This document shows positions 7,306 to 34,346 of a DNA stretch of 53,582 bases, one piece after another. Source of the stretch: Candidatus Termititenax sp. (GTDB lineage: Bacteria > Margulisbacteria > Riflemargulisbacteria > GWF2-35-9 > DYQY01); assembly GCA_020719045.1 (NCBI GenBank), contig DYQY01000001.1, positions 1 to 53,582 of the forward strand. Direction: 5' to 3'. Positions within the stretch are counted from its first letter, which is position 1; each line of letters starts with the position of its first letter. A program made the translations under genes and the position numbers. Under the pieces are notes generated by a model. That model saw only the letters and a program-made list of their open reading frames with translations. It had not been told where the DNA came from and did no database searches.

Positions 7306-7310
7306 ATCAC

Positions 7311-28081: not shown

Positions 28082-30397
28082 ATGAAAACAATAAAAACAG
28101 TAACAGGACAGAAAAGATTATCAACCCAACAACTACTACAGGAAATATACTCTGCAGTAGATAAAGGTGAAACAAGCATTTCTATTGATGCCTGTGGTCA
28201 ACATGACATTGGTGGCCCAATCTGGAACAAAGATGGCAAGGTTCTTACTTTTAATATTAAAAATCCTGGTCAACGTGTTGGCTCAATGTGTTTACCAAAC
28301 ACCAGAATTATTGTTGATGGCTCAGCTCCTGCTGATGTAGGTTGGCTAAATGCTGGTGGAGAAATAATCGTCAAAGGTGACGGTGGAGATACTTCTGCTC
28401 ACTGTGCTGCAGCTGGTAAAATATTTATTGGTGGAAGAGTTGGAACAAGGTCTGGCTCACTAATGAAGCATGACCCTAAATTTGAAGCTCCTGAATTCTG
28501 GGTGCTTAAAAATACTGGCAGTTTTTCATTTGAATTCATGGGTGGCGGTGTTGGTGTTGTCTGTGGCCATGATTCTGAGGCCTTTGAGTCTGTTTTAGGC
28601 GACAGAGCATGTGTTGGCATGGTTGGCGGAGTAGTTTACGTTAGGGGCGCACTAAAAGGCGTCTCAGAAGAAGTTACAGTATCTGAACTTTCAGTTAGCG
28701 ATATTGCTTTCCTGAAAGATGGCATTCCAGACTTCCTAGAAAAAATCGGAAAAAAAGATTTAGAAAAGCAACTTACTAAATGGGCTGATTGGAAGAAAAT
28801 TGTTCCTTTATCCTATGAGAACGCTCACAAAAAATCAGGTTCAAGTATTAAAAATTTCAGAAAAGATGCTTGGGTAGAAGACGGTATCTTCTCTGACGTA
28901 TTTCCTGATACTGGCAAATTAGTAGAGCTCATAACAACAGGTAGAGACAGATTGCGTTACCCTAAATGGGAAAACAAAAAGTTTGCAGCTCCTTGTGAGT
29001 TTAATTGTCCTGCAGGAATTCCTACGCAAGAAAGATTTAATCTACTTAGAAAAGATAAAACTCAGGAAGCGTTAGAACTTATCTACCAATACAGTCCTTT
29101 CCCAAAAACAGTTTGCGGGGAAGTTTGTCCTAACCTATGCATGACGGACTGTACAAGAAAAGACGTTGACCAGGCTATTGATATTCAGGGTTTAGGTACT
29201 GCTTGTGATATGCAAGTAACAAAGCCTGTAACAACCAAAAAACAAAAGATAGCTATTGTTGGTGCTGGTGTAGGTGGATTAACAACTGCTTGGCATCTAC
29301 GCCTAAAAGGCTACCCTGTCACGGTTTTTGATAAGGATAGCAACATCGGTGGAAAACTTGCAAATGCAGTATCAAGGGAAAGACTTCAAGATGGATCTCT
29401 TCAAAAGGATTTAGAAAAGTTTTTTGAGCTTGGTATTGATTTCAAGTTAAACACACCTATTACAGCTAAGGAATATATCAAACTTAAATCAGATTTTGAT
29501 TATGTTGTACTTGCAACTGGTGCTTATGCTCCAAAGGTTCCTCCTTTCCCAGGAAAAGAAAGACTTATGTATTCTTTAGATTTTCTTGCAAAAGTTAACA
29601 AAGGCGAAAAACCAAAAATCGGCAACAAGGTTATTGTTATTGGTGCAGGCAATACTGGTATGGACGTTGTCTTTGGTGCTTACAAATGTGGCGCAAAAGA
29701 AGTTACTTGTATCGATGTACAGAAGCCAGCTGCTTTCGCTAAAGAGATAGAACATGCCAAGAGCTTAGGTGCAGAGATTCGTTATCCTGTTTTTACAAAA
29801 GAGATTCTTGCTGACGGATTACTAACTTCTGATGGTGAAACAATTAAAGCTGATACTGTAATCCTAGCAATCGGTGAAGTGCCTATTCTTAACCATATTA
29901 CTGACCCATATGAAACAACTAGAGGCTACATCAACGTAAAAGATAACTACCATTTAGGCGATAATGTTTATGCTATCGGTGATATTACAAAACTTGGTCT
30001 GCTAGTAGATGCAATAGGTCATGGTCGTGAACTAGCTAACATTCTTGATGCAAAAGCAACCAATCAGCCATATGCGCCTGTTATTAAAAAACTTGTCAGC
30101 AGAAATAACTTAGTTACAGCTTATTTTGACAAAGCTCAACCAAAAGACATCTGTGGTGGTTGCGCAGACAAAAGCCGTTGTATCAGCTGTGGGACATGTA
30201 GAGACTGTGAAATCTGTAAGGATAGCTGTCCTGAATTAGCAATTACTAGAGAACTAGATAAAGATGGTAACGCAGAATACATTGTTAACGAAGACAAATG
30301 TATTGGTTGCGGTATCTGTGTATCTATTTGCCCATGTGGTATTTGGAATCTTTATTCAAATTCTCCATATCACCCAGTCGAGGAAATAGAGGAGTAA
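28082..30397 (+). CDS. Glutamate synthase GXGXG domain fused to GltD-like oxidoreductase and ferredoxin
   Basis: A 771-aa fusion. Residues 1-240 are the GXGXG beta-helix (GltB domain 3): GQHDIGGPIWNKDG, VDGSAPADVGWLNAGGE, FMGGGVGVVCGHDSE. A GltD module follows with FNCPAGIP and VCGEVCPNLCMTDC, then FAD motif IAIVGAGVGGLTTAWHL and NAD(P) motif VIVIGAGNTGMDVVFGA. The C terminus has several Fe-S motifs (CGGCADKSRC, CGTCRDCEICKDSC, CIGCGICVSICPCG). GXGXG and GltD are usually separate, so this fusion ties the electron-input subunit to the large subunit in a single chain. Confidence 0.92.
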   Translation: MKTIKTVTGQKRLSTQQLLQEIYSAVDKGETSISIDACGQHDIGGPIWNKDGKVLTFNIKNPGQRVGSMCLPNTRIIVDGSAPADVGWLNAGGEIIVKGDGGDTSAHCAAAGKIFIGGRVGTRSGSLMKHDPKFEAPEFWVLKNTGSFSFEFMGGGVGVVCGHDSEAFESVLGDRACVGMVGGVVYVRGALKGVSEEVTVSELSVSDIAFLKDGIPDFLEKIGKKDLEKQLTKWADWKKIVPLSYENAHKKSGSSIKNFRKDAWVEDGIFSDVFPDTGKLVELITTGRDRLRYPKWENKKFAAPCEFNCPAGIPTQERFNLLRKDKTQEALELIYQYSPFPKTVCGEVCPNLCMTDCTRKDVDQAIDIQGLGTACDMQVTKPVTTKKQKIAIVGAGVGGLTTAWHLRLKGYPVTVFDKDSNIGGKLANAVSRERLQDGSLQKDLEKFFELGIDFKLNTPITAKEYIKLKSDFDYVVLATGAYAPKVPPFPGKERLMYSLDFLAKVNKGEKPKIGNKVIVIGAGNTGMDVVFGAYKCGAKEVTCIDVQKPAAFAKEIEHAKSLGAEIRYPVFTKEILADGLLTSDGETIKADTVILAIGEVPILNHITDPYETTRGYINVKDNYHLGDNVYAIGDITKLGLLVDAIGHGRELANILDAKATNQPYAPVIKKLVSRNNLVTAYFDKAQPKDICGGCADKSRCISCGTCRDCEICKDSCPELAITRELDKDGNAEYIVNEDKCIGCGICVSICPCGIWNLYSNSPYHPVEEIEE

Positions 30398-30463
30398 ACT
30401 CTCTTCGCTCATTAAAGACTTCTACATCCTTCCCGCAACGGCAACTTCGCATAGCCGCAAACG

Positions 30464-30727
30464 TTGTGTGCAAGCAAGACGAACGAAAATAGGCAGACAA
30501 ATATAAATAAAAGACCTATATTAAACACGCAAATTTCAATACAGGATTTCAAAGACTTTTATTGGAATAAAGAGGAATTGGTTGATTTTTGTCGGTCAGA
30601 GAACTTAGATAAAAGGGGCGCACACTTAAAGGACGGAACCTTTAAACATACTCAAATCCTTCCCTTTTCAAGGGAAGGTGTCAGCCGGTCACTGAGCGAA
30701 GCCGAAGTGAAGCTGACGGAAGGGTAA
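30464..30727 (+). pseudogene. Remnant of a SAP-like/DUF6434 protein gene
   Basis: An open frame of 87 codons starting at TTG. Its residues 18-50 (RPILNTQISIQDFKDFYW, then NKEELVDFCRSENLD) resemble the start of small SAP-like DUF6434 proteins as I remember them. The expected continuation of the SAP fold is missing; instead the frame runs through the REP-like repeat. I read it as a truncated gene with repeat DNA at its 3' end. There is no Shine-Dalgarno sequence. Confidence 0.45.
30658..30724. repeat. REP-like structured repeat
   Basis: A perfect 9-bp hairpin CCTTCCCTT/AAGGGAAGG (30658-30678) is followed by GTCAGC (30680-30685) pairing with GCTGAC (30712-30717) around CACT/AGTG. CCTTCC at the left also pairs with GGAAGG at 30718-30723. 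The inner CACTGAGCGAAGCCGAAGTG resembles a dispersed repeat common in bacterial genomes. Its right end supplies the -35 of tsaD. Confidence 0.75.
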
Positions 30728-30741
30728 TTACAAGCTATAAT
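30713..30741 (+). promoter_or_regulatory. Leaderless promoter of tsaD
   Basis: CTGACG (30713-30718), a 17-bp spacer and a perfect TATAAT (30736-30741), ending 6 nt before the ATG. The -35 lies in the REP-like repeat. tsaD has no Shine-Dalgarno sequence, so the mRNA should begin at the start codon. Confidence 0.6.
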
Positions 30742-30747
30742 AACCAC

Positions 30748-31773
30748 ATGATACATATAACTATTGGTATTGAATCTTCTTGTGATGAAACATCTGTTGC
30801 CATTGTAGAGAATGGAACCAAGGTTTTATCTAATATTATTTATTCACAAATAAAAGACCATCAAAAATACGGTGGAGTTGTACCAGAGATGGCTTCAAGG
30901 CTCCATGTAATGAACATAATTCCTTGTATCAAAAAAGCAATAAGCGAAGCAAACATAAAACAAGAAGACATTAGCCTAATAGCTACAACAAAAGGTCCTG
31001 GACTACTAGGTGCACTCAGCACAGGACTAACAGCAGCTAAAGCTATTGCATACACACTTAAAAATCCTTTCATCGCTGTACATCATTTAGAAGGACACAT
31101 CTACTCTAATCTATTAGATGATAACGCTATTTTCGAATATCCATGTTTAGCGCTAGTTGCCTCAGGTGGACACACTCAACTTATCCTTATAAACACACCT
31201 TTTGAATATCAACTTGTAGGAAACACGCTAGATGATGCTATTGGTGAAGCGTTTGATAAGTCTGCAAGAATTGCTGGACTTGGCTATCCTGGTGGACCAA
31301 TAATCGATAAGCTTGCCAAAGAAGGTGATCCTAAAAAATATAGATTCCCTCCTGTAAGAACTGAGAATCCTTTAGACTTCAGCTTTAGTGGACTAAAAAC
31401 TGCTGCTCTTAACCTTAGCAAAGAACTAAATCTGCTTGAAGAACCTAAAGATAGTCAGCTAATGAAAGACTTCTGTGCTTCACTACAAGACAAACTCATC
31501 TCTGAGTTAACTAATAAAACATTTACAGCAGCTGATAAGTTTAAAGCTAAACAAATAATTATTGCTGGTGGGGTTGCAGCTAATTCCTTCCTTAGAAAAA
31601 ACCTCTCTGAGCGAAGTGGTTACAATATTTCAATGCCACCGCTTAAATACTGCACAGATAATGCTGCAATGATGGCATGTGCTGGATACTTCAGATATCT
31701 TAATGGAGAAACAACTACTCTAGATATTGAGCCAAAAGCTAATTTGAACCTGTTCCAATCAGTATCCAGGTAA
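30748..31773 (+). CDS. tsaD: tRNA N6-threonylcarbamoyladenosine synthase subunit TsaD
   Basis: ASKHA-fold ATPase subunit (341 aa, normal length) that transfers threonylcarbamoyl to A37 of ANN-decoding tRNAs with TsaB and TsaE. The N-terminal motif is GIESSCDETSVAIV, the metal-binding HHLEGH is present, and ALVASGGHTQL, GEAFDKSARIAGLGYPGGP and GGVAANSFLR follow. The conserved DNAAMMACAG segment is near the C terminus. tsaB, tsaC and tsaE are not in the window. It appears monocistronic, with a leaderless promoter. Confidence 0.98.
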   Translation: MIHITIGIESSCDETSVAIVENGTKVLSNIIYSQIKDHQKYGGVVPEMASRLHVMNIIPCIKKAISEANIKQEDISLIATTKGPGLLGALSTGLTAAKAIAYTLKNPFIAVHHLEGHIYSNLLDDNAIFEYPCLALVASGGHTQLILINTPFEYQLVGNTLDDAIGEAFDKSARIAGLGYPGGPIIDKLAKEGDPKKYRFPPVRTENPLDFSFSGLKTAALNLSKELNLLEEPKDSQLMKDFCASLQDKLISELTNKTFTAADKFKAKQIIIAGGVAANSFLRKNLSERSGYNISMPPLKYCTDNAAMMACAGYFRYLNGETTTLDIEPKANLNLFQSVSR

Positions 31774-32696: not shown

Positions 32697-33146
32697 CCTC
32701 ACCCCTAGCCCCTCTCCATCCTAACGGACGGAGAGGGGAACTTTATTATCTCATCAAGAACACTTGATAAGTTATCTAAAACTTTACCATTAGTAAATCT
32801 AACTACATGATATCCTAAATTGACTATCAGTTCTGATCTCAATTTATCATAATCTTCTTGAAATAAATGAATACTACCATCTATCTCAATAACAAGTTTT
32901 TTAATTGGAACATAAAAATCTGCAACGAACAATCTTCTTCTTTTTTCATAAACAAAACTAATTGGATGTTGTCTTTTTACTTTAAACCCAAGCTTATTAT
33001 TTCTAACTGCCTGCCAAATTATAAACTCACTAGAAGTTTGTTCTTTTCTCAAATTACGAACAATTTCTTTAAATGACATTTTTGTCTTCCCCCTCTTTGT
33101 TTTGAGTAGAACGAGAAGTGGAGAGGGGGTCAGGGGGTGAGATGGT
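32697..33146. mobile_element. DUF559 insertion element between trpB and trpA
   Basis: A 450-bp unit carrying one DUF559 gene. It is bounded by inverted repeats CTCACCCCTAGCCCCTCTCC (32698-32717) and the complement of a 22-bp right copy (33120-33141). Each end also has an inner complementary copy (CCCCTCTCC/GGAGAGGGG; CCCCCTCT/AGAGGGGG) that can form hairpins. The direct repeat TTCATTA flanks it at 32690-32696 and 33147-33153. Collapsing that repeat restores a normal 400-aa TrpB stop 2 bp before the trpA start. No transposase is encoded. Confidence 0.72.
32705..33079 (-). CDS. DUF559 domain protein (Vsr/restriction endonuclease-like fold)
   Basis: A 124-aa protein of the DUF559 family, distantly related to very short patch repair endonucleases. 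Motifs are [53 protein letters not shown] with the D..E.D core, and [12 protein letters not shown]. The function is not established. The start at 33079 has GAGGGGGA about 9 nt upstream and overlaps the extended trpB stop by 11 bp; a longer frame to 33151 would read through the repeat. It has no metabolic link to tryptophan and sits in an insertion element. Confidence 0.85.
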
Positions 33147-34346
33147 TTCATTAGTCAAAAACTTCTTCCAATTATCATTATCTAAAGCCTTTGCTGTTAT
33201 AAAAATGTCTTTATCTCCTCTACCGGAAATGTTAACAACAACTATTTTATCCTTAGAAAGTTTTGGGGCTTCCTTTAATGCATAAGCAACTGCGTGCGAA
33301 GACTCAAGCGCTGGAATAATTCCCTCTGTCAGAGAAAGTAACTTAAACGCATCCAAGGTCTCTTGGTCTGACACACTTACATATTCAACCCTCTTTGCTT
33401 TGTGAAGATACGCATGTTCTGGGCCAATACCTGCATAATCAAGACCTGCACTTATTGAATGTGTATCACTTAACTGACCATCCTCGTTCTGTAAAAAATA
33501 TGATCTATAGCCTTGAACAATTCCTTCTGTCGGAGTACCTACTGATAGTCTCGCTGCGTGCTCTCCTATCTTATTACCTGTTCCACCAGCCTCTACTCCA
33601 ATAAGCCTTACTCCATCGTTTATAAAGTCACTAAACATGCCGATTGCATTTGAACCACCGCCAACACAAGCGATACAGACATCTGGCATTCGTCCCTCTT
33701 TGTCTTCCATCTGTTGTCTAATCTCTTTACCTATCACAGACTGAAAATCCCTTACAATTGTCGGATAAGGATGAGGCCCTAAGGCAGACCCTAAAAGATA
33801 ATATGTGTCATCAAGGTTCTCTATCCAATACTTGAAGGCTGCATTAACTGCATCCTTGAGCGTTCGTGTTCCATACTTTACAGAAACAACCTCTGCTCCT
33901 AATAGCTTCATTGAAAAAACGTTTGGATATTGTCGCTTAATATCAACCTCGCCCATAAACACCTTACATTTCATGCCTACTTTTGCAGCAACTGTCGCCG
34001 TGGCTACACCGTGCTGACCTGCACCTGTTTCAGCTATCAAATATTTCTTCCCCATTCTTTTAGCTAGTAAAGCTTGTCCAACGGCATTGTTAATCTTGTG
34101 TGCACCTGTATGATTAAGGCTTTCTAATTTCAGATATACCTTTGCGCCACCAAGCATTTTGGTAAGGTTCTCTGCATAATACAAAGGGGATGGTCTACCA
34201 ACATAATTGTTAAAAAGATTCGCTAGTTCAGCATGGAATCCTTCTTCCTTAATTGACGCTTCATAGCACTTTTCCAGCTCATCAAGAGCAGGAATAAGCA
34301 TCTCGGGGACAAATCGTCCTCCAAACTGTCCGAAATATGAATTCAT
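33069..34346 (-). CDS. trpB: Tryptophan synthase beta subunit with insertion-derived tail
   Basis: PLP enzyme that condenses indole and serine. The start is [15 protein letters not shown]. The PLP lysine is in [15 protein letters not shown], the phosphate loop is [12 protein letters not shown], and the [11 protein letters not shown] and GRGDKD motifs are intact. It has 425 aa; the last 25 (from TISPPDPLS) read through the end repeat of the DUF559 element and are not part of the family. Without them it has 400 aa, the normal length. It overlaps trpC-F by 4 bp (ATGA). Confidence 0.97.

Follow-up and report, generated by a model that had tools for sequence, protein, structure and literature searches.

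The ends of mobile DNA have long been known to form hybrid promoters. In insertion sequences, and in MITEs such as Correia elements, the mobile end provides an outward-facing -35 that pairs with a resident -10. Another set of described systems is the REP sequences and REPtrons: short palindromic extragenic repeats occur in tens of copies, inverted copies flank the gene for a DNA-cutting enzyme (RAYT, or TnpA_REP), and repeat and enzyme are paired. For REPs that bear a CGTC tag no dedicated transposase was found, and promoter roles of repeats are called speculative (PMC3733652). Nucleases with a DUF559 domain have been described in other settings: one such gene is placed in the EDxHD homing family (PMC9403480), and in Legionella, segments with transposase and DUF559 genes that occur repeatedly are reported to be hotspots of recombination (PMC12308824).

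The window considered here is the whole stretch of 53,582 nucleotides analysed, from Candidatus Termititenax sp. An initial annotation had proposed that the edge of a repeat-rich scar became the promoter of tsaD, an essential gene for tRNA modification. We regard this as the best reading and as fairly probable: the edge of the repeat would have become half of the tsaD promoter by way of an insertion, or another junction-forming event, with a small mobile repeat at its right edge, and two further cases strengthen it. That mobile ends can complete promoters is not in itself new; this case would add the involvement of core genes (tsaD and ispD), recurrence at a fixed spacing, and dependence on a variable arm. 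The features of the region are as follows.

30398-30654, the scar, between the upstream oxidoreductase gene and the repeat
30426-30434, + strand, ATCCTTCCC, possible stub of another repeat copy's left end (a weak, post hoc assignment)
30464-30727, + strand, open reading frame with a truncated SAP_new25 remnant (Pfam PF18953), reading on into the repeat
30655-30725, + strand, two-hairpin repeat element AATCCTTCCCTT..AAGGGAAGGTG-arm-GGAAGGGT (multi-copy; single-stranded DNA fold z -3.6)
30658-30678, + strand, hairpin 1, fixed stem CCTTCCCTT/AAGGGAAGG (core-pattern search)
30680-30717, + strand, hairpin 2, variable arm GTCAGC/GCTGAC with a nested GGTCACTGAGC..GAAGTG palindrome (arm comparison, shuffles)
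30713-30718, + strand, CTGACG, candidate -35 inside the repeat (promoter scan, sister comparison)
30718-30725, + strand, GGAAGGGT, fixed right end of the repeat (copy alignment; sister similarity starts at 30726)
30736-30741, + strand, TATAAT, -10 box, conserved in the sister species
30748-31773, + strand, tsaD (TIGR03723, 404 bits, cut-off 296)

Read from 30655 to 30725, the repeat consists of AATCCTTCCCTT-TTC-AAGGGAAGG, then TG, a self-pairing arm and GGAAGGGT. Its core, CCTTCCCTTTTCAAGGGAAGG, would be expected by chance 0.01 times in the window. With up to 3 mismatches allowed, 17 copies were found in the genome that carries the window, versus 0 for a reversed control pattern, and what had been annotated as a REP-like repeat is indeed a dispersed two-hairpin element. 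Core matches numbered 63 in 6 of the 38 genomes searched, all from the same order: 17 in the window's own genome (G000), 14 in its sister (G001, the only same-genus genome in the sample), 19 in G002, 9 in G005, 3 in G006 and 1 in G004. The core was not found in G003 or in any of the 31 genomes outside the order.

The frame of the repeat is fixed, and its second hairpin is free to vary provided that pairing holds. Among 49 copies with both ends extracted (those whose right end lies within about 62 nt, a set that leaves the ispD copy outside), 44 distinct arms were counted, and for 42 of the 49 the fold of the arm was equalled by 5 or fewer of 100 shuffled sequences. The ends are constant, AATCC on the left and GGAAGGGT on the right (GGAAGGGG in one copy). 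As regards the terminal inverted repeats and target-site duplication of MITEs, AATCCTTCC is able to pair with GGAAGGGT, a constant duplicated flank was not seen among the copies, and the comparisons yielded no clean empty site. In several copies, that at tsaD included (L040, L041, L051, L112), the GGTCACTGAGC..GAAGTG palindrome is a second palindromic repeat nested in the variable arm.

The repeat resembles REPs in being short, palindromic, mostly intergenic (its positions are near gene ends) and multi-copy. It differs from them in having two hairpins, one fixed and one freely varying, and in its ends: no constant tag-like sequence, whether GTAG or CGTC, was found beside the arm among the copies compared. 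Many arms do terminate in GACGG, which reads CCGTC on the opposite strand and recalls the palindromic CGTC-tagged REPs (PMC3733652), but such a tag is not constant among these copies (GGGC, GGCC and CGGT also occur as arm ends), and stems and lengths differ. A RAYT-type transposase (PF01797, Y1_Tnp) was not found in 7 of 8 genomes, own and sister among them, and gave one weak match in G005; with no Y1_Tnp in either species, we rejected classification of the repeat as a RAYT-linked REP. Assignment to an Rfam family was likewise rejected: the window gave no hit at gathering scores, and 30398-30760 gave none up to E 1.

The copy at tsaD folds as two hairpins not only as DNA but also as RNA (-28.6 kcal/mol, z -3.0), and the nearest neighbour on the right side of the repeat is a gene stop in 19 of the 49 copies. 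Both facts would suit a hairpin, of RNA or DNA, whose function is to end or protect the transcript of the upstream glutamate-synthase-like gene and to insulate tsaD, without contributing any part of a promoter. We consider this quite unlikely, since the right ends of the other 30 copies face a start codon, no Rfam match was obtained, and the scan, which detected no T-run, does not identify an intrinsic terminator.

Every part of the promoter that had been described before tsaD is present: CTGACG, 17 bp, TATAAT, 6 nt and the ATG. CTGACG lies inside the repeat as claimed but is not its last sequence; the repeat runs on through GGAAGGGT to 30725 and therefore takes up 7 nt at the start of the spacer as well. 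The combination scores 10/12, the best of 7 promoter-like sites in 3 kb. Because 8.1 such sites are expected by chance in this interval, the match by itself proves nothing, and a further site, scoring 9/12, lies inside the scar at 30494-30522.

The sister species is more informative. Before its tsaD, 18 of the 20 nt preceding the ATG are identical to those in the window, with the same TATAAT and the same 6-nt gap, while eight 10-nt windows farther upstream share only 0-3 of 10 positions each in an ungapped comparison. The blastn match between the two species begins at L041:1569, which is window position 30726, the first base past the repeat. Because the similarity stops at the repeat's edge, the -10 of tsaD is read as inherited and the upstream half as exchanged at that edge. 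The layout is that of a hybrid promoter: a -35 from the element, a -10 from host DNA (TATAAT also precedes the repeat-free tsaD of the sister) and 17 bp between them. The proposal that a repeat insertion rewired the tsaD promoter gains from this comparison, the sister having kept the -10 and its 6-nt gap and carrying unrelated sequence exactly where the repeat begins. It is limited by the sister's own -35 candidate, TTATCA at 17 bp, which matches the consensus at 4 of 6 positions, as does CTGACG.

The same arrangement recurs. The repeat end GCTGACGGAAGGGT, followed by 10 nt, TATAAT, 6 nt and ATG, also stands at G000:C3:808 and at G001:C42:15829, so that examining other copies for -35 use, as the initial annotation had suggested, produced two more genes with identical 17-bp and 6-nt spacings and lends the rewiring proposal further weight. 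The first is a TIGR00375-like gene that falls below the cut-off of that model and which we take to be of the PHP type (PHP-domain); the second is ispD-like (TIGR00453, 179.6 bits, cut-off 181.3) and is cut by the contig end. The genus has 31 copies, of which 27 have an intact right end, and among these 5 arms end in TGAC and 22 do not. TATAAT lies at exactly +10 in 3 of the 5 TGAC-ended arms versus 0 of the 22 others (Fisher one-sided p 0.0034, a post hoc comparison). Two of the three repeat-end promoter cases are in one genome and share ATTAC[AC]AGC flanks. In the sister, the TIGR00375-like gene has neither repeat nor TATAAT upstream; it directly follows another open reading frame, and homology begins at the ATG.

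Counted by itself across the 8 genomes, the pattern GGAAGGGTN{4,20}TATAAT shows no numerical enrichment (5 occurrences versus 4 of the reversed pattern). Two of the five are in coding sequence with no repeat, and the three at repeats have one common gap length. The two extra GGAAGGGT...TATAAT matches with a 17-nt gap (G000:C13, G006:C23) were set aside; no repeat is present there and they look like coding sequence.

These results bear on the alternative that the repeat is inert debris, that tsaD is driven by the -10 alone, by upstream read-through or by a promoter in the scar, and that CTGACG is coincidental. The chance frequency of promoter-like sites in the region and the second site in the scar agree with it, as does a -35 signal that is weak genome-wide in the sampled loci: at 42 leaderless-type sites the mean best match to a -35 was 3.0, versus 2.5 at shifted positions. 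Set against these are three genes at which the arm type, the 17-bp spacing and the 6-nt gap recur exactly, and the conservation of the -10 in the sister, and we think the alternative unlikely. In many genes the ATG is preceded, at a distance of 6-7 nt, by a TATAAT-like box (for example at window positions 7310, 8895 and 30748), a pattern suggestive of widespread leaderless mRNAs in the genus.

The events at tsaD can then be pictured as follows. A junction formed by recombination or insertion would lie upstream of the gene, with the small mobile two-hairpin repeat as its right edge. The -10 box would have been inherited, as would its 6-nt distance to the ATG, at which the tsaD mRNA would probably be leaderless; all sequence beyond the 10 nt that precede the -10 would have given way to the repeat. 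Since the variable arm of this copy ends in GCTGAC, the right end GCTGACGGAAGGGT would happen to place a -35-like hexamer, CTGACG, at 17 bp, the ideal spacing. Copies with a GCTGAC arm lie at the same position before at least three genes of the genus; we infer that selection kept them there, and from the shared placement the repeat end would act as a portable -35, active as a promoter half. This would differ from the hybrid promoters of MITEs and insertion sequences in that the -35 belongs to a variable arm, so that only some copies can supply one.

The direction of the change is less clear. The sister carries AATCCTTCCC, identical to the 10 nt of the repeat's left end, upstream of its tsaD, and elsewhere in the 62 kb of the sister genome that were searched this sequence occurs only at real copies. 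It may be what remains of an older copy, which qualifies the claim that the window's lineage was rewired; insertion at tsaD may have preceded the divergence of the two species. The repeat was not found within 600 nt upstream of tsaD in four other loci of the order and one of the class. It is therefore not ancestral in all relatives: tsaD loci of the same order in another family are without it. The initial annotation had named ancestry of the repeat in all relatives as something that would refute its proposal.

We accordingly weighed a history in which the repeat at tsaD predates the species split and decayed in the sister, which perhaps replaced its -35 by TTATCA, the window's lineage not having been rewired at all. 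The left-end stub, as the only occurrence outside a repeat in 62 kb, fits such a history, and so does its distance to the -10, 63 nt compared with 58 nt in a minimal copy (judged by eye). The sister, however, has no trace of the second strand of hairpin 1, of the arm or of the right end. The upstream gene differs too: the 771-aa oxidoreductase that ends at 30397 in the window (glutamate-synthase-like GXGXG and Pyr_redox_2 domains by Pfam) has no true homologue in the sister in a check of gltD-tsaD synteny (best match 26% identity), and the tsaD site has therefore been rearranged. On balance an older repeat seems somewhat unlikely.

Another route to the same promoter would be exchange of the variable arm within a resident repeat, with no insertion of a whole element. 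Two orthologous repeat sites were found between the species of the genus, L055/L114 and L042/L120; at both, the arms are almost wholly different yet still self-complementary, and the arm GGGACCGCTTTAGCGGT, at L055 in the window's genome, is identical to that of a different sister site, L113, the orthologous site L114 having a different one. It seems that arms can pass from one site to another. This evidence comes from two orthologous sites only, independent insertion at the same place would produce the same picture, and in the other genus pair most orthologous arms resemble each other; that the tsaD -35 arose by arm exchange is, in our judgement, doubtful. Insertion or junction at the repeat's edge is the reading we retain.

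The truncated SAP-like coding remnant that had been described as running into the repeat is supported by a match to SAP_new25 at 30542-30622 (E 1.5e-9, above the cut-off) that covers model positions 1-27 of 51 only, within the open reading frame at 30464-30727. In the search of 38 genomes this was the only SAP_new25 match in the window's own genome; longer matches (positions 1-47 and 1-50) were found in two others, G016 and G003. The 9-mer ATCCTTCCC at 30426-30434 is its sole further occurrence in the window beyond the repeat itself. Just before the repeat, GGACGGAA at 30631-30638 resembles the right end of another copy (GGACGGAAGGGT) and may be a second eroded copy beside the SAP remnant.

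A more surprising lead than the tsaD promoter is the link between the repeats and DUF559 genes. DUF559 (PF04480) was found in 8 of 8 genomes and in 27 of the 38 of the phylum sample, with 68 matches. At two orthologous loci of one genus (G002:C3 4363-4772 and G005:C164 18349-18758) the gene lies between inverted copies of the same repeat family as that at tsaD. For a broader view we scored the best inverted match between the left and right 250-nt flanks of 54 of the 68 matches, 14 fragments or weak matches being left out, with a threshold of 12. This score was reached by 37 of the 54 loci (14 of 26 in the class, 23 of 28 in the rest of the phylum), compared with 7 of 400 random blocks and 1 of 28 tsaD loci. 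Against a harder control of mismatched DUF559 flanks, the 95th percentile was exceeded by 16 of 26 loci in the class and 20 of 28 in the rest of the phylum. Between genera, similarity of DUF559 correlates with similarity of the flanks (Spearman 0.215, 0 of 2000 permutations as high; 1257 pairs among 52 loci, two more having been dropped from the 54), a correlation to which shared descent of whole loci may add.

The window holds the only DUF559 gene of its genome:

32705-33151, - strand, DUF559 (Vsr-like) nuclease gene (PF04480, E 4.7e-25) between trpB and trpA, names that we presume from the translations

It has inverted repeats of another type, CCCCTCTCC, at about 32697-32738 and 33090-33141. 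If a DUF559 nuclease is the mover of the tsaD repeat, that mover is therefore absent from this 99% complete assembly. A CCCCTCTCC-type repeat overlaps the 3' end of the trpB reading frame (33069-34346, - strand) and encodes its last residues (23 letters).

The linkage of gene and repeat, from which the idea is drawn, suggests that DUF559 may mobilise hairpin repeats, and the tsaD repeat would probably have been spread by such a Vsr-like nuclease acting on hairpins. As in REPtrons, inverted copies flank the gene of a DNA-cutting enzyme, the difference being that the enzyme is of the PD-(D/E)XK type and that 7 of 8 genomes lack a Y1 transposase. The Vsr-like homing endonucleases of the EDxHD family share the Pfam domain PF04480 (PMC9403480, PMC12907096); they differ in that DUF559 is here tied to flanking hairpin repeats, and an unsystematic look noticed no link to introns, inteins or cytosine methylases. 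In the DUF559 literature, as represented by extracts that include PMC12907096, PMC8836110, PMC9403480 and PMC12308824, we found no tie of the domain to hairpin repeats. Through this linkage DUF559, which is widespread and of unknown function, would gain a role, and hairpin repeats in genomes that lack RAYT transposases would have a candidate mover. More tentatively, and with somewhat less than even confidence, we propose that a large and unrecognised class of two-hairpin repeats is mobilised by DUF559 nucleases, as a REPtron with a Vsr-like nuclease in place of a Y1 transposase, in which the second hairpin would be an exchangeable cassette and GCTGAC arms a portable -35 recruited for essential genes such as tsaD and ispD.

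Outside the phylum, four DUF559 matches exceeded the cut-off in 23 genomes, and the flanks of four matches were inspected. One Oscillatoriales locus has inverted hairpin flanks, and a Ruminiclostridium locus has two-hairpin repeats downstream only, within 200 nt (L213, L212); given these hairpin repeats near DUF559, the link may reach beyond the phylum.
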